Shown in pieces: positions 1-54,804 of a stretch of DNA of 64,000 bases. The stretch comes from Actinomyces sp. zg-332 (GTDB taxonomy: Bacteria > Actinomycetota > Actinomycetes > Actinomycetales > Actinomycetaceae), in NCBI RefSeq assembly GCF_011751945.2, contig NZ_CP064951.1:1-64000 (forward strand). The letters run 5' to 3'. Positions within the stretch are counted from its first letter, which is position 1. The number at the start of each line of letters is the position of its first letter. The notes under the pieces are model-generated. The model saw only the letters and a program-made list of their open reading frames with translations, had not been told where the DNA came from and did not search any database. Made by a program: the position numbers and the translations under genes.

Positions 1-175
1 TCCACAGGAATTACAAAAATGTAGTTTTTTGAAATATCAATGTTTCCGAAATTATCCTTGAAATTACAGCAATGAAAGTATTTATCCACACCTGTTAATA
101 AACTTGTGTATAACTTTTTTTCCAACTAATATTTGTTAGACGATAAAAACAATATGGTAGAAATTAGGAGAAGTT
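1..175. other. dnaA upstream region, part of oriC
   Basis: This is the AT-rich leader of dnaA. It carries one exact DnaA box, TTATCCACA, at 82-90, a one-mismatch box in reverse (TGTGTATAA, 105-113), and a truncated box tail (TCCACAGG) at the left edge. The dnaA Shine-Dalgarno AGGAGAAG lies just before the ATG at 176. The region probably continues to the left of the window, so the origin cannot be fully judged here. Confidence 0.75.
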
Positions 176-1609: not shown

Positions 1610-1936
1610 TGCATTTTAATGTGGAAAATAATAATTTTTTTGTTATTTAACTTGTGGATAACTTTCTACTATCTGTTTATAAGTTTTATACTAAATTTAT
1701 AAACATTTTTATCCAAAGAATATGTAGCTTTTATAAACAAGTAAAAGTGTTTATATTTCAATGAAAAAATAAGTTATCCACAATATCAACAACCTCTACT
1801 ATTACTTTTAAATTAAAAAGAGAAAATAATTTTATAAATAATCTGCAGTGGCTTTTGTCAAAAACTAAAAAAATCTTGAAAAAAATAGATAAAGTAAATA
1901 ATCTTAGTTATAGAAAAATATCATCGGAGGAATAGC
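1610..1936. other. dnaA-dnaN intergenic region with DnaA boxes (candidate oriC)
   Basis: This 327-bp A-rich spacer contains two exact DnaA boxes, reverse at 1654-1662 (TGTGGATAA) and forward at 1774-1782 (TTATCCACA), and AT-rich stretches suited to unwinding. The dnaA-dnaN spacer is the usual oriC position in actinobacteria. Box density here is much lower than in the cluster at 11.4-11.8 kb. Confidence 0.7.
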
Positions 1937-4786: not shown

Positions 4787-4978
4787 AACCAATAAAATAA
4801 AAAAATATACGAAAATAAGGGTTAATGTGCTTATAAATAGGGACTCACAGCAGAGCATGTTAAAATCGTTATAAAGCAAATATATGCATAATTACAGTAA
4901 ATTATATGAAAAAAAGTGTTTTAAATGTAAAATAGTGTATAGTCTATGTATTTTCAGTAGAGAACGGGAGACTCACAC

Positions 4979-10358: not shown

Positions 10359-10556
10359 AATTTTTTTGTTATTAATCAACTCTAAAAACTATATTTTCAA
10401 TTATTTGGAATTTTATTTTCAAATCTATATTCTTTTATATAAATAACGATTAAAATCACTTATAGTCTAAATTTTAGTGTATGTTTATCCGTGCAATTGA
10501 TATTATTGTACGTGTAAATAAATATTTCTTTTTTGAGTAACAACAAGGGAGTTGTT

Positions 10557-11243
10557 GTGATAAAATACGCAGATTTTGTTGAAAGATATACTTTTCCTGA
10601 AGGCATAAATCTTTCCGATGACATTAAAGAGGAAATTCTTTCCTCTTCCTGGGAATATCTCATTACTTTGCCTAATATTGAAGACATAATTTGCTGTATT
10701 CAAGACTTACTTGAAGATAGTGAGTACTCAATTTCTGAAGAAAATATTGAAATCATAGCTAAATCAATAATTGAATGTAGACGTAAACAAATTGCTGATT
10801 ATAAAAATTCACCCGAGTATAAACCATCACGTTTAACAGCTGCTTTTAAAGAACTTAGGGAAAATAATGTTTTAGCACTTGAAAACTTTAGTTGTTGTGG
10901 AACTTGTGCATCCAGCGAAGCTTACGACTTGATGTATGAGGAAGAAGAGTGGTTTGCTTACATATATTTTCACCAGCAAGATACTGAAATATTAGTTGAA
11001 GATGGAAGAACTTATTTAGGTTACGAGTGCAAATGGACAAAAATTTGCTCTGAAGAAGACTATGATGCTATGGCAGAGGAAGAGCGTCATGGAGTTTATT
11101 TGAATGAATGTAAAAAATTAGCTGACGAGATCTTGAAACCTACCTTTAATAAACATGGAATTGAATTTACATGGAATTATGATTTGGGTACTAGAATGCA
11201 TATCAGTAACGCTGATTTTTTCGCAGATATTGAAGACGAATAG
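10557..11243 (+). CDS. DUF6891-like protein
   Basis: The protein is soluble, acidic and about 228 residues long. The second half resembles the DUF6891 family: LTAAFKELRENNVLALENF, the cysteine motif CCGTCASSEAYD, and YFHQQDTEILVEDG. No signal peptide or membrane segment is visible. Its biochemical function is unknown. Such domains often occur as orphan genes next to polymorphic-toxin immunity families, which is family context and not evidence here. I chose the GTG at 10557 because GGGAG lies 5 nt before it. An in-frame TTG at 10533 would add 8 residues but lacks a Shine-Dalgarno. It is a stand-alone gene with its own terminator. Confidence 0.7.
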   Translation: MIKYADFVERYTFPEGINLSDDIKEEILSSSWEYLITLPNIEDIICCIQDLLEDSEYSISEENIEIIAKSIIECRRKQIADYKNSPEYKPSRLTAAFKELRENNVLALENFSCCGTCASSEAYDLMYEEEEWFAYIYFHQQDTEILVEDGRTYLGYECKWTKICSEEDYDAMAEEERHGVYLNECKKLADEILKPTFNKHGIEFTWNYDLGTRMHISNADFFADIEDE

Positions 11244-11292: not shown

Positions 11293-11426
11293 TATAAGTG
11301 CTGCTGTTTTTAGATTTGACACCCTTAGGGAAAACCTGTGTAAAACTTTTAAAATATTTATATAAATTAGGTTTACCTTAGTTATAAAGTGTAAATTTTT
11401 TCTCTATAAACTTTTTCTCCCCATGC

Positions 11427-11815
11427 TTATCCACAAAAACTGTGGATAAAATGTGTATAAGTTAATGTAATCTTAAATACCAAGTTGAAAGTTAATCCAC
11501 AAATTACATATTTGTAATATGTGAATAAGTATCCACAGGTTTTTCCACAGGATGTGAATAAAAAATAAATTACATTTTTGTACTTTTCCACAAAGTTATT
11601 AACAGTGTGTGAAAAAGTCCTATTTTTCAGTTTTTCTAAAGATAAAAATTTTTATTTTACGTAAATATACTTTTTCACAAGAGAATTTTTGTTTTGTGGA
11701 TTAACTTTCAAGTTATTAACAGATTTATTTGAGTTGTGGATAAAACTGTGTATAAATTCTCTTAATAATCGTAATGTTGTGTGAAAACCTGTGTAAAAGT
11801 GCTTAATTATCCACA
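11427..11815. other. dense DnaA-box cluster (candidate origin or DnaA-titration site)
   Basis: This AT-rich, gene-free segment has four exact DnaA boxes: 11427-11435 (+), 11441-11449 (-), 11735-11743 (-) and 11807-11815 (+). It has seven one-mismatch boxes at 11452-11460, 11493-11501, 11529-11537, 11541-11549, 11584-11592, 11695-11703 and 11747-11755. The first two exact boxes face each other 5 bp apart. The cluster sits in an 808-bp gap (11244-12051) with no credible ORF. Box density is well above that of the dnaA flanks visible in this window. It could be the functional oriC, a second origin module, or a datA/DARS-like control site. Confidence 0.8.
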
Positions 11816-12051: not shown

Positions 12052-12459
12052 TTACTTGTAACCGTAAATGCAATAAGTGTTGTTTTCTACTTCATAATTT
12101 ATATTGTATTTATTTAGTATTTCTTGCAATTTTTTACTAGCATCAACTAGTTCACTTTCAACCAAAGTACCTATATGTTTTAGATACCTAGGTCTAATCT
12201 TTATCCATTCAATAGATATAGTGCCGTTAGGGAAACAACAGCAATCACAACGATACCAAGTCCCAAAATTACTATCATCATCTTCAAGTTTAGGAACAGA
12301 ATTCTCATCTTCAAATAAGTACTTAACAACATAAGGTGGAGGAAAAGGCATTTCTTCTAGCATGGCTTGTGATAATTCGTTCCACTTCGTGTTATTCATA
12401 TAACTACATAAGTTTCTTTCAGATATTATCGCTAAAACTTTTTCTCTTTCAGATTTCAT
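12052..12459 (-). CDS. DUF6678-like protein
   Basis: The protein is soluble, about 135 residues, and resembles DUF6678: SYMNNTKWNELSQAM, EEMPFPPPYVVKYL, WYRCDCCC and IEWIKIRPRYLKHIGTLV. No signal peptide or membrane span is present. The function of the family is unknown. The ATG at 12459 is preferred because family similarity begins there. An ATG 12 codons upstream (12495) is also possible, and neither has a good Shine-Dalgarno. It is a monocistronic gene transcribed toward the DnaA-box cluster. Confidence 0.65.
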   Translation of the reverse strand: MKSEREKVLAIISERNLCSYMNNTKWNELSQAMLEEMPFPPPYVVKYLFEDENSVPKLEDDDSNFGTWYRCDCCCFPNGTISIEWIKIRPRYLKHIGTLVESELVDASKKLQEILNKYNINYEVENNTYCIYGYK

Positions 12460-12510
12460 AGTAGGTACTTTCTGTAAGTGAAGTATAACAATCATATTAA
12501 AATATTCTTA

Positions 12511-12565: not shown

Positions 12566-13330
12566 TCAGTAAAATCCAAAACATAAAAGTAGTTCAACTA
12601 TAATCACAGGTAAAGCACTGAGTATAGTTGCTGAGGTTGATTTGTAAACCTTAGGACGGCTCAAAATATAAGTCATAGCTGTTCCAAATACTAAACCACC
12701 AATATGTCCCATTACTGCTATGTCAGGTATAATGAACGTCATTGCAAGGTTTAGCCCTATCAAAGTAAGCATAGGTGTTGTTGAAATCCCTTGTCGTTTT
12801 TGTAGCACGTAAATTGCTCCAAATATACCGAATATGCCTCCAGAAGCTCCTAAAGTAAAAGCATTTGCCCCTATGGAAGTGAGCATATAGTAGGCTGCGG
12901 TTAAAGCTGAACCACCTATTATAGAAACGATATACACTATCCCAGTTCTTAGAGAACCTAACATTTTTTCAAGCTCGCCACCTATGTAATACAAGGTGAT
13001 CATATTGAATAATATGTGTAGAAAACCTATGTGTATAAACCCAGAAGTTAAAACTGTCCAAGGATTGAACATGGTCCAAAATGGATGGTAAGCAAGTTTG
13101 AAACTGATATGAGGGATAAATAACTGTAAAATGTAAAGAAATACACAAATTGCAACTATTGCTTTAGTAAAAGGGGTGTGACTTTTCTTAAGTCTAATAA
13201 CTGAATGTGAAATATTGTAATTTTTATTGCCCAGCGAAAATTTTTTCACATTATTAGATTGTTGGTAAGAATTTTTATTCCATTCATGCTTATAGGCATC
13301 AAAATCATTAATTGGTGATATGTCTGACAT
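12566..13330 (-). CDS. rhomboid family intramembrane serine protease
   Basis: Rhomboids cleave membrane proteins within the bilayer. The protein has 254 residues: a hydrophilic N-terminus of about 55 residues and then six or seven transmembrane segments. The catalytic serine lies in GASGGIFG, the paired histidine in GHIGGLVFG, and the HILFN motif (oxyanion Asn region) is present. It lies in the conserved actinobacterial neighbourhood of cyclophilin, CrgA and sortase genes. Its substrate cannot be read from the sequence. A hairpin and a parS site separate it from the upstream cyclophilin gene, so it probably has its own promoter. Confidence 0.9.
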   Translation of the reverse strand: MSDISPINDFDAYKHEWNKNSYQQSNNVKKFSLGNKNYNISHSVIRLKKSHTPFTKAIVAICVFLYILQLFIPHISFKLAYHPFWTMFNPWTVLTSGFIHIGFLHILFNMITLYYIGGELEKMLGSLRTGIVYIVSIIGGSALTAAYYMLTSIGANAFTLGASGGIFGIFGAIYVLQKRQGISTTPMLTLIGLNLAMTFIIPDIAVMGHIGGLVFGTAMTYILSRPKVYKSTSATILSALPVIIVELLLCFGFY

Positions 13331-13412: not shown

Positions 13413-13940
13413 TTAATCTTCGATGATTTCGATTGACTTTATTACAACGTCGTCTAGTGGACGGTCACGCATATCTGTAGGAACAGTAGCAATCTTATCA
13501 ACAACAGCTTTTGACTGGTCATTAGTAACTTTACCAAAAACAGTGTGCTTGCCATGTAGCCATTCAGTAGGTACAACAGTTATGAAGAACTGTGAACCGT
13601 TAGTTCCGTGACCATCACGTTTTCCAGCGTTAGCCATAGCTAAGACATAAGGGTCGTTAAAGTTATATTCAAGATCAATTTCATCGTCAAAGGTGTAACC
13701 TGGACCGCCCATACCAGTACCGGTTGGGTCACCACCTTGAATCATAAAACCATCTATAATTCTATGGAAAATTACGCCGTCATATAGAGGTGTATCTACC
13801 ATAGTTTTACCAGTATTAGGATCAACCCATTCGCGTTCACCCTTTGCTAGTTCAACAAAGTTTTTTACGGTAACGGGTGCGACATGAGGAAAAAGTTCTA
13901 TGCGAATGTCGCCTTCGCTTGTATGCATAATAGCTTCCAT
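13413..13940 (-). CDS. cyclophilin-type peptidyl-prolyl cis-trans isomerase
   Basis: The enzyme catalyses cis-trans isomerisation of prolyl bonds. The protein has 175 residues from the ATG at 13940. An upstream ATG would add 19 residues with no homology. Core cyclophilin motifs are present: FHRIIDGFMIQGGDPTGTG with the catalytic arginine, NGSQFFITV, WLHGKHTVFGKV. No signal peptide or lipobox is seen, so it is probably cytoplasmic. Its position beside a rhomboid gene and crgA is conserved in actinobacteria. GGAAG within its first codons could also serve a second ATG four codons later. Confidence 0.93.
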   Translation of the reverse strand: MEAIMHTSEGDIRIELFPHVAPVTVKNFVELAKGEREWVDPNTGKTMVDTPLYDGVIFHRIIDGFMIQGGDPTGTGMGGPGYTFDDEIDLEYNFNDPYVLAMANAGKRDGHGTNGSQFFITVVPTEWLHGKHTVFGKVTNDQSKAVVDKIATVPTDMRDRPLDDVVIKSIEIIED

Positions 13941-14141
13941 AGTATTAATTCTTACATAATGATATAAACTAAACAAATAGATAATAATAACTTTCACTAA
14001 TAGCCAAATAAGAAAAGAAATATTAATATTAAGTAAATAAGGAAATAGCAGATGTTTTATGGGTGCTAATGCATTAAAATAGAAAGAAGTACAAATAAAA
14101 CTAGAGCTAATTCTTTAGAGTAACTATCATAGGAGACCAAA

Positions 14142-14648
14142 ATGACTTGTTGCCGCAAACGTATAGATAAAGAAAAACTTAAGACAAATGTAGCTAACGC
14201 AAAACAGTTAGCACAAATTCATGGTCAAGCATACAAAGAATATGCACAGGACCTATTCGCAAATGGCAAAGAATGGGCAACTCCTCGTGCAGAAAAGGCT
14301 TGGAAAGAAACAGTTAAATTCACAGCCCCACGCTTATCTTTAGCTGCTAATAAAGTAGCTCCAGTGCTAGAAAATGCACACACAAAACTAGTTCAAGACT
14401 ATATTCCACGAATCGATTCACTAACAAAGGAAGAAACAATGTCAAATAAAACTCATAAAGTACGTAATATCGTACTAATTTTCACAGGGCTTGTCACAGC
14501 TGTCGTTGCTGGCGTTTTGGTATGGCGTCGTCTACAGCCTGTTGATGACCCATGGGCAGAAGAATACTGGGAAGACTTTGAAGAGGAATGTGGCGAAGAC
14601 TGTGATTGCGCTGCAGTAGCTGATGAAGTAGTTGAATCTGAGAAGTAA
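14142..14648 (+). CDS. single-span membrane protein, function unknown
   Basis: I cannot assign this to a characterised family. The 168-residue protein starts MTCCRKR after AGGAGACC. Its long amphipathic, Lys/Ala-rich N-terminal half (about 10-100) looks helical, one transmembrane segment follows at about 109-127, and the tail is strongly acidic (DPWAEEYWEDFEEECGEDCD). The DPWAEEYWED-like end recalls small actinobacterial YtxH-like membrane proteins. It has its own strong terminator. Two N-terminal cysteines and the acidic Cys-containing tail could bind metal, which is speculation. Confidence 0.75.
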   Translation: MTCCRKRIDKEKLKTNVANAKQLAQIHGQAYKEYAQDLFANGKEWATPRAEKAWKETVKFTAPRLSLAANKVAPVLENAHTKLVQDYIPRIDSLTKEETMSNKTHKVRNIVLIFTGLVTAVVAGVLVWRRLQPVDDPWAEEYWEDFEEECGEDCDCAAVADEVVESEK

Positions 14649-14659
14649 TTTTTATCAGA

Positions 14660-14692
14660 AGAGGGTGTGGATAACCTCCACACCCTCTTTTA
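14660..14692 (+). terminator. strong terminator after the 14.1-kb membrane protein gene
   Basis: A 12-bp perfect stem (AGAGGGTGTGGA/TCCACACCCTCT) with loop TAACC is followed by TTTTATTT. It lies 12 bp past the stop, between convergent genes, and may work in both directions. Confidence 0.9.
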
Positions 14693-15736: not shown

Positions 15737-16003
15737 TTATCGCCATCTAAGTGCCATCATAAAACCAGAAAAAGAAATAAGCGTACCTATGCCTAAGTTC
15801 CAGTTACCAATACCAGGAATAGGATAAGAACCGCTAGAAATGTAGTAGACAACGATCCAGAATAGCCCTGTTAACATTAGTGTAACCATTACTGGTGCCC
15901 ACCAAGATGGACTCATCTTAACGTTGTCAACCCAAGATGGACGGATATCAGTATCAGAATGAACAGACTGTCCATTACTCTTACGCCTCTTTGATTCTGG
16001 CAT
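15737..16003 (-). CDS. crgA: cell division protein CrgA
   Basis: CrgA is a small actinobacterial divisome protein that interacts with FtsZ and PBPs at the septum. The protein has 88 residues from the ATG at 16003, chosen because AGGAG lies 6 nt upstream. The reading frame extends further but without a start signal. A basic N-terminus (MPESKRRK) is followed by PSWWAPVMVTLMLTGLFWIV (first span), SSGSYPIPGIGNWN and a second span ending in GFMMALRWR, all typical. The femAB-like gene follows 21 bp downstream, so the two may be co-transcribed. Confidence 0.95.
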   Translation of the reverse strand: MPESKRRKSNGQSVHSDTDIRPSWVDNVKMSPSWWAPVMVTLMLTGLFWIVVYYISSGSYPIPGIGNWNLGIGTLISFSGFMMALRWR

Positions 16004-16302
16004 AAAAACTCCTCGTAAAATAGATAGACGTACTAATTCTAACGAAAATGTGGAACTAAAACAAAATACATTCACAATGTGAAATAAAATTTTAATTAAT
16101 ATAGACTAACTACGCTAATAAGCCACAATAAATTATCAAACTTCAAAGACTATGAAATAAGAAAGTTATTAAAAACTTTATCAATATTATAAATTCATAA
16201 TGAAAAATAACTCAAAAACTACTATAACCATCTAATTAGATAGTAAAATATACGAAGTGTACTTTAAATAAATATGTAAACAATCTAGGAATGTAGAAAA
16301 GA

Positions 16303-43053: not shown

Positions 43054-44873
43054 TGAAAATTGAAGCTGGTCTTGTCCTTGCAGACCGTTACCGTTTACTC
43101 TCACGCATAGCCATTGGAGGTATGGGTGAAGTTTGGCGTGCCAGAGATACTCACTTGAACATTATTGTTGCTGTCAAAATTTTGCGTGATGAACTTGTTG
43201 GACAAGAACAGTTTTTGAACCGACTACGTGTGGAAGCTGAGAATGCTAAAAAAGTAATGCACCCTAACTTGGCTCGTGTATTAGATCATGACGAGACTAA
43301 TGGACGTGGCTGGATAGCTATGGAATTTGTGCAGGGGCAGCCGTTATCTAAGCGACTAGTTTCAGGCTCTACTATACGTGTGCGTGAGCTGTTGCCTATA
43401 CTTATACAGATTTCTAACGCACTATTTGCTTTGCATTCAGTTGGTGTTGTACATAGAGATGTGAAACCAGCTAATATTCTGGTTACTGATGAGGGCGTTG
43501 TTAAACTAACTGATTTTGGCATTTCAAAGTCAGATTCTCAGCCTAATATGACCGCTGTAGGTATGGTAATGGGGACTGCTCAATATTTAGCACCTGAGCA
43601 AGTTTTAGGTGAAGCAGCTTCTCCTCGTGGTGATATTTATGCTTTGGGTATTATTGCTTATGAAGCAGTTGTGGGCAATAGACCTTATACCGGTAAAACT
43701 CAAGTAGATATTGCTTTTGCGCATGTTAATGAGACTTTGCCTCCTTTACCAGCGTTTATTCCACCAGCTTTGTCTACTGTTATAGAGAAAATGCTAGCCA
43801 AATCTCCTGAGGATCGTTTTGAAAACGCTGATGTTTTAGCTAAGCAACTACATAAAGTAATGTTACAGATATGCCCTGATGTGGTTGTGCCGAATGCTGA
43901 AATTACAACTTTTGAGCGTCCTTTGACTCGTCGTGAAACACTTAAAGTTCCAAAGATTTCAGCTGATCCTGATACTGCTTTGCAACAAATCAGTGAGTCG
44001 TCAAGCTTTGCTGAGCATGAAAGTCCAGCTGAAAATGTTTCACAGCTTTCAGATATGTATCAAAACATTACAAACACTTCTAGCTCTTCAGAGTTAGGCC
44101 ATCAGCCTAATGATTCAGAAAATATTGATGTTTTATCTTCTAATCCTGTTGAGGTAGATGAACAGCCTACTCAAAATGATGAGCGTATTTCTGAAAAAGT
44201 TGTAAAAAAGACTAAAAAAATGAAAGTTTATCGCCGTGGTGGGCTAAATCACAACTTGAAAACAATTCAAAAACAAAGCGGTAAAGATAGCTCAGATAAA
44301 TCTGAAATTAATCTTTCATCTAAACTTAATCAAAAGTCTTCTTCTTTGAGTAATATGTATCCGAACTTAAACACTACATCAATTAAGAAAATTAAAAATG
44401 TTAAAAAATATTTTTCTCGAGATAAATTTCTCGGAAAAACTTTTGATGAAATTATTCGTGGTGAGTCGGATGAAAATAGTAAACAAAAGATTTCGAATAC
44501 TACTTTACTAGCTTTGTGTATTGGAATATTGCTATTTTTTGCTCTATTTTTCTATTTTGTTTTCACAGGTTTTTCTTCACTTTTAAATGCTCACTCGCAT
44601 GATTTTATGAATAAAGATTTGTATGTAGAACATTTTGGAAATATTTTTTCATCCAATTACTTAAAAGATTTTGAAATGTTATTTGTTTTAACTGTTGTGC
44701 CTAGTCAAGGTACAATGTATAAAGACAAGATTTCTCTATCTAATCGTATGAATTTTGTTTCTACTATTTCATGTCGTAGTGTGTATAGTAGAAAAAATTT
44801 GTTTATGGGGATAATGGAAAAACTATTTTGTTTTTTCAAACAAAAAGTTAGTCATGGACTAAGAAGGAAATGA
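43053..44873 (+). CDS. pknA: Ser/Thr protein kinase PknA-like
   Basis: The Hanks-type kinase controls division and cell-wall synthesis. The catalytic domain (about 1-275) has glycine loop IAIGGMGEVW (first Gly replaced, as is common in PknA), Lys42, HRD at 134-136, DFG at 154-156 and the GTAQYLAPEQ activation segment. A long Ser/Asn-rich juxtamembrane linker (about 290-480) precedes one span (about 493-517). An unusual extracytoplasmic tail of about 85 residues follows, ending in a basic Phe-rich stretch. No PASTA repeat is present. The ATG overlaps the pbpA stop. Confidence 0.93.
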   Translation: MKIEAGLVLADRYRLLSRIAIGGMGEVWRARDTHLNIIVAVKILRDELVGQEQFLNRLRVEAENAKKVMHPNLARVLDHDETNGRGWIAMEFVQGQPLSKRLVSGSTIRVRELLPILIQISNALFALHSVGVVHRDVKPANILVTDEGVVKLTDFGISKSDSQPNMTAVGMVMGTAQYLAPEQVLGEAASPRGDIYALGIIAYEAVVGNRPYTGKTQVDIAFAHVNETLPPLPAFIPPALSTVIEKMLAKSPEDRFENADVLAKQLHKVMLQICPDVVVPNAEITTFERPLTRRETLKVPKISADPDTALQQISESSSFAEHESPAENVSQLSDMYQNITNTSSSSELGHQPNDSENIDVLSSNPVEVDEQPTQNDERISEKVVKKTKKMKVYRRGGLNHNLKTIQKQSGKDSSDKSEINLSSKLNQKSSSLSNMYPNLNTTSIKKIKNVKKYFSRDKFLGKTFDEIIRGESDENSKQKISNTTLLALCIGILLFFALFFYFVFTGFSSLLNAHSHDFMNKDLYVEHFGNIFSSNYLKDFEMLFVLTVVPSQGTMYKDKISLSNRMNFVSTISCRSVYSRKNLFMGIMEKLFCFFKQKVSHGLRRK

Positions 44874-54763: not shown

Positions 54764-54804
54764 AATTGTGGATAACTTATCTAAAAAAGGAGTTATCCAC
54801 AATT
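54764..54804. promoter_or_regulatory. 14-bp inverted repeat formed by two exact DnaA boxes
   Basis: AATTGTGGATAACT (54764-54777) is repeated as its exact reverse complement at 54791-54804, across a 13-nt spacer. Each arm contains one exact DnaA box (54767-54775 and 54793-54801). It lies 98 bp before the gpmA start codon and 458 bp before pckG, in non-coding DNA. It may be a DnaA-regulated promoter element or a titration site. Confidence 0.75.

Follow-up and report, generated by a model that had tools for sequence, protein, structure and literature searches.

A DnaA-box cluster near the origin of Actinomyces sp. zg-332, probably a local form of an Actinomycetota DnaA-control site at the 3′ ends of rhomboid and crgA

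The DnaA-box cluster and its setting

The genome of Actinomyces sp. zg-332 is a single 1.54-Mb contig (NZ_CP064951.1), and its first 64,000 nucleotides, hereafter the window, contain a dense cluster of DnaA boxes at positions 11427-11815, 10 kb from dnaA. The GyrA encoded by this genome has its nearest matches in Actinomyces and related Actinomycetaceae. The cluster lies within an 808-bp gap between two convergent genes, DUF6891 and DUF6678, and no other open reading frame (ORF) of 80 or more amino acids is found in this gap. Upstream of the gap, to the left, the gene order is gyrA-DUF3566-tRNA-Ile-tRNA-Ala; to the right of the cluster lie rhomboid, ppiA, a FemAB-like gene and crgA, all on the reverse strand.

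When up to one mismatch is allowed, TTATCCACA matches at 13 places in these 389 bp, four of them exactly and nine with one mismatch. A first-order Markov model trained on nearby intergenic DNA gives an expectation of 0.13 such boxes for this length. The maximum in 4000 simulations was three, and 3980 of these contained no exact box. The whole chromosome carries 48 exact boxes versus 27 for the reversed control pattern, and nowhere except in this cluster do more than two fall within 400 bp. The original prediction, made from the letters of the window, had described gene-free DNA with four exact and seven one-mismatch boxes, more densely set than the flanks of dnaA, where it counted three exact boxes. 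The gene-free setting, the four exact boxes, the greater density and the three exact boxes near dnaA (at 82, 1653 and 1774) were all recovered; the one-mismatch boxes had been understated.

Conservation at the 3′ ends of rhomboid and crgA

Among relatives with contigs long enough for comparison of the rhomboid locus, a box cluster is found at the rhomboid 3′ end, usually between a forward-strand rhomboid and a reverse-strand crgA. Over 36 loci, the window included, the rhomboid 3′ flank carries 3.5 boxes per kb versus 0.57 elsewhere, with oriC counted in the latter figure. One locus (L009) has no boxes within 1 kb of rhomboid and three one-mismatch boxes slightly beyond that distance. The crgA gene gives the same picture from the other side. 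Box content played no part in the choice of 85 crgA loci, most of which were drawn across the class. Their 500-bp flanks 3′ of the gene hold 219 boxes in total and those 5′ of it 6; shuffling of the 3′ flanks gives an expectation of 9.6. Control flanks (gyrA, DUF3566, dnaN 3′ and recF 3′) contain ~0.1 box per 500 bp. The 23 crgA loci from outside the class have 35 boxes on the 3′ side and none on the 5′ side, and Streptomyces scabiei has four boxes 3′ of crgA. These counts show a box site that is conserved at rhomboid/crgA throughout the class and is probably phylum-deep. Most of the relatives' loci compared here have a GC content of 47-73%, and one fragment has 41%; among the relatives searched, no second genome of the same genus turned up.

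In the window the cluster is on the 3′ side of rhomboid, with the DUF6678 gene between them. The rhomboid-ppiA block is inverted here and in nine relatives (some Actinomyces among them). In the seven inverted-block genomes in which crgA could be checked (six relatives and the window), no boxes lie within 500 bp 3′ of crgA, and the cluster stands beside rhomboid. We read this pattern as an inversion of the rhomboid-ppiA block after which the box element appears to have been retained. The DUF6891 and DUF6678 genes were not detected near the corresponding place in the relatives examined, and look like late insertions.

Other boxes occur in the same region. A lone exact box (14666-14674) lies near crgA, between the convergent 3′ ends of an ORF (14142-14648) and the FemAB-like gene. 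In relatives, the dciA-gyrB spacer (4787-4978 in the window) is also enriched in boxes (0.76 and 0.60 per 500 bp versus ~0.1 at the controls), possibly marking another DnaA site.

Arrangement of the boxes

At the crgA sites, the spacing of boxes on the same strand peaks at 12-13 bp (41 pairs) and that of convergent boxes at 10-11 bp (24 pairs) and 23 bp (21 pairs), while divergent pairs are rare. These spacings are those of a whole or partial four-box palindrome, and the convergent peaks are not seen in oriC spacers. A head-to-head triplet core, defined as a convergent pair of boxes with a third box 11-14 bp outward, is present at 65 of the 85 crgA sites, for which mononucleotide shuffling predicts 0.0; among oriC spacers, 11 of 62 have one. 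When 118 whole genomes were searched for the 19-bp palindrome TTRTCCACANTGTGGAYAA with up to one mismatch, 17 genomes had it, at one place each and in every case 38-106 bp from the 3′ end of crgA. The palindrome with spacing 11 lacks this specificity for crgA, since only 7 of its places in the 118 genomes are next to that gene.

Head-to-head triplets are formed in the window by 11529+/11541+/11553- and within the array 11415+/11427+/11441-/11452- (Table 1). The convergent inner spacing in these cores is 12 and 14 bp, and neither window core has the spacing of 10-11 bp that prevails in the family.

Table 1 Features of the window (box positions are followed by their strand).
Feature	Position	Strand	Remarks
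Exact DnaA boxes of the cluster	11427+, 11441-, 11735-, 11807+		
One-mismatch DnaA boxes of the cluster	11452-, 11493+, 11520-, 11529+, 11541+, 11553-, 11584+, 11695-, 11747-		
Palindromic four-box array	11415..11460		11415+ (two mismatches), 11427+, 11441-, 11452-; last three spaced 0/14/25
Three-box core	11529..11561		11529+, 11541+, 11553-; spacing 12/12, closest to the family core 12/11
Tandem box pair	11735..11755	-	Spacing 12
DnaA boxes of the dnaA leader	82..113		Triplet +--, spacing 11/12
Probable oriC unwinding element	1774..1810	+	dnaA-dnaN spacer; exact box, then five DnaA-trios; CTACTATTACTTTTA
DUF6891 gene	10533..11243	+	Left neighbour of the cluster
DUF6678 gene	12052..12495	-	Right neighbour, between cluster and rhomboid
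rhomboid	12566..13330	-	Conserved box site of relatives at its 3′ end
ppiA (cyclophilin)	13413..13997	-	Inverted along with rhomboid
crgA	15737..16075	-	Box site at its 3′ end in most of the class, not here

The mycobacterial counterpart

Rv0011c of Mycobacterium tuberculosis is taken here to be crgA, following established annotation. The CrgA of one sampled locus (L137) matches the solved M. tuberculosis CrgA, and the mycobacterial site is therefore represented in the crgA-locus sample. The Rv0010c-Rv0011c site is bound by DnaA in vitro and in vivo (Hicks 2020, PMC7738170), and chromatin immunoprecipitation sequencing in M. smegmatis recovered the same five DnaA sites (PMC7738170). Mutants of the site have longer cells and resemble hypomorphic dnaA alleles; titration and nucleotide exchange were both considered as the mechanism and not decided between (PMC7738170).

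Of the five mycobacterial DnaA sites, four or more have recognizable counterparts in the present genome, namely oriC, the dnaA leader, the cluster described here and a cluster upstream of a dnaB-like gene (named from sequence). The last, at 1519426-1519563 of the genome, consists of six boxes (two exact and four with one mismatch) and is the counterpart of the M. tuberculosis dnaB-upstream site. Two exact, divergently oriented boxes 26 bp apart lie between divergent genes at 54767-54801; this pair (54767/54793) was rejected as the dnaB-upstream site, its neighbours resembling phosphoglycerate mutase and PEP carboxykinase (likewise named from sequence).

Proposed function and alternatives

We consider the cluster, with a probability of about 75%, to be an extra-oriC DnaA-control site and to represent in this genome an Actinomycetota element located at the 3′ ends of rhomboid and crgA near oriC. 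The original prediction had listed a site like datA or the DnaA-reactivating sequences (DARS) of Escherichia coli among its options and had named conservation in relatives as a check. The boxes are indeed kept at rhomboid/crgA across the class, and this position, the box layout and the published DnaA binding in mycobacteria (PMC7738170) speak for such a site; the interpretation as a whole is supported in part.

The copy in this genome is predicted to bind DnaA. DnaA would occupy the head-to-head core, comprising two convergent boxes and a third box 12-13 bp outward that is oriented like one of them, as well as the extra boxes around it, and DnaA bound at the cluster would tune the amount of active DnaA reaching oriC. 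The core may bring two ADP-DnaA molecules face to face, upon which ADP would be lost and ATP reloaded. The expanded box array of this genome probably also titrates DnaA.

That the core works as the E. coli DARS do is a tentative proposal, with nearly even odds, drawn from the likeness of the two layouts. DARS are defined by a fixed spacing between box I and the oppositely oriented boxes II and III (PMC5742627), a layout that leads to head-to-head contact of ADP-DnaA and release of ADP (PMC5742627; PMC8682772). The spacing of DARS1, read from E. coli DNA, is 0/14/26 and that of the window boxes 11427/11441/11452 is 0/14/25, the respective arrangements being TTATCCACT-ATTCC-TGTGGATAA-CCA-TGTGTATTA and TTATCCACA-AAAAC-TGTGGATAA-AA-TGTGTATAA. 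This one window triplet shares the DARS topology and is one base off in spacing; relatives differ. Upstream of E. coli mutH, the boxes of DARS2 (1136+/1150-/1162-, spacing 14/12) are each recognized only at one to two mismatches, and the triplet filter therefore does not flag DARS2. DnaA residues D269, L290, R285 and R334 are conserved in the DnaA of this genome.

Several observations weigh against this reading of the site. The inner gap is 1-2 bp in most actinomycete cores versus 5 bp in DARS, and the actinomycete element is origin-proximal whereas the E. coli DARS are not adjacent to oriC. Gln208 of E. coli DnaA, which is required for the head-to-head contact at DARS, aligns with Asn here. 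The initiation rate is unchanged in mutants of the Rv0010c-Rv0011c site (PMC7738170). Finally, according to reviews, Streptomyces and Bacillus have box clusters near oriC that are repressive and datA-like.

The cluster could instead be a datA-like sink that, once the fork has passed, does no more than titrate DnaA or promote ATP hydrolysis, and thereby represses re-initiation. This is a serious possibility, given that the cluster is near oriC and would double early after initiation, and that this copy is enlarged to 13 boxes. According to the same reviews, box clusters in S. coelicolor and near oriC in B. subtilis (Okumura 2012, as reviewed) repress untimely initiation. However, the convergent spacing is kept strictly throughout the class, which titration by itself would not require, and the mycobacterial site mutants are like hypomorphic, not hyperactive, dnaA alleles. 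A DARS-like function is slightly favoured over a datA-like one, with titration a close rival, because the core has the same topology as DARS, albeit with a tighter inner gap, and because mycobacterial mutation resembles reduced DnaA function. More speculatively, Actinomycetota might share, at the rhomboid/crgA 3′ ends, an element of ancient origin and fixed position that reactivates DnaA, as DARS do, but in Gram-positive bacteria. Such an element would have its own palindromic head-to-head geometry, control the nucleotide state of DnaA and perhaps couple initiation to division.

DnaA-mediated transcriptional control of the neighbouring genes is an improbable role for the boxes. DnaA doubles as a transcription factor and the boxes are intergenic, but in this genome, as in many relatives, convergent genes meet the site with their 3′ ends, and its neighbours change among relatives while the boxes persist. 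In addition, expression of Rv0010c and Rv0011c is unaltered in M. tuberculosis dnaA mutants (PMC7738170).

The original prediction had also entertained the cluster as the true origin or as one half of a bipartite origin, and it does hold more boxes per length than the dnaA region. This is very improbable. The cumulative GC-skew minimum is at ~498, inside dnaA and not at the cluster. Sixteen 15-kb samples, taken together with the window and the 10 kb upstream of it, show positive skew over the first ~0.5 Mb, values close to zero at 0.6-0.7 Mb, and negative skew over the rest of the chromosome beginning at 0.77 Mb. Between -10 and +64 kb, a single exact box, that of the dnaA-dnaN spacer, is followed by a DnaA-trio run; a one-mismatch box with four trios at 44806 is a weaker match, and the cluster has no trio run. 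The dnaA-dnaN spacer of relatives is box-rich too. The skew minimum within dnaA and the sole exact box with a trio run thus led us to reject the cluster as the origin; as a bipartite partner it is also unlikely, since it has no trio run and is separated by 10 kb in which gyrB, gyrA and other genes lie. A parS-like palindrome, TTTCACGTGAAA, was observed near oriC, in the last 1.5 kb of locus L003 upstream of dnaA.

A chance build-up of AT-rich 9-mers in a low-GC genome, in which the 34.8% GC of the window raises the number of near matches, is effectively ruled out by the Markov expectation and by GC-rich relatives, which have the cluster at the same place.

Novelty and significance

The mycobacterial site and the concept of extra-oriC box clusters were already known. 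In the literature searched, from which most subscription papers were absent, we found no description of a site conserved at rhomboid/crgA across the class and probably the phylum, of its strict head-to-head spacing, of its persistence when the block is inverted or of its likeness to the DARS core, nor any report tying crgA by name to extra-oriC DnaA boxes; with this partial coverage, priority is not certain. The restraint and resetting of DnaA in actinomycetes are poorly known, and the mycobacterial site has been labelled cryptic for want of a settled mode of action. Membership in an element that spans the class and probably the phylum, with a fixed layout like that of DARS, would turn that site into a testable control module, with a sequence signature, TTRTCCACA-n-TGTGGAYAA beside crgA, that can be sought in other genomes. 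If the element is a counterpart of DARS, selection on the mycobacterial copy would have favoured mutations that tune the DnaA switch.

Comparison with known DnaA-binding sites

The actinomycete core resembles E. coli DARS1 and DARS2 in that box I faces the opposite way from boxes II and III and the spacing is fixed. It differs in that most actinomycete cores are 10-11/12-13, and ADP release, established for the E. coli sites, is a prediction for the actinomycete core. E. coli datA, which acts together with IHF (integration host factor; PMC5742627), is likewise a non-coding DnaA-box cluster outside oriC. In contrast, its boxes in the present scan are spread and mostly in one direction (3178+, 3233+, 3245+, then 3407+/3419-), and they form no triplet by the definition used here. 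The clusters of B. subtilis, as described in reviews, are similar in being near oriC. Those of Streptomyces coelicolor (Smulczyk-Krawczyszyn 2006) are also actinomycete extra-oriC box clusters near oriC. One of them, H69, may be the crgA site, judging by cosmid names.

The M. tuberculosis Rv0010c-Rv0011c site is small, with few strong boxes in its core, and lies upstream of Rv0010c, whereas the Actinomyces site has 13 boxes and has moved with rhomboid away from crgA. DnaA binding has been measured for mycobacterial sites only, the Actinomyces site being known from its sequence. Both are origin-proximal DnaA-box clusters with a palindromic pair, in the same gene neighbourhood.
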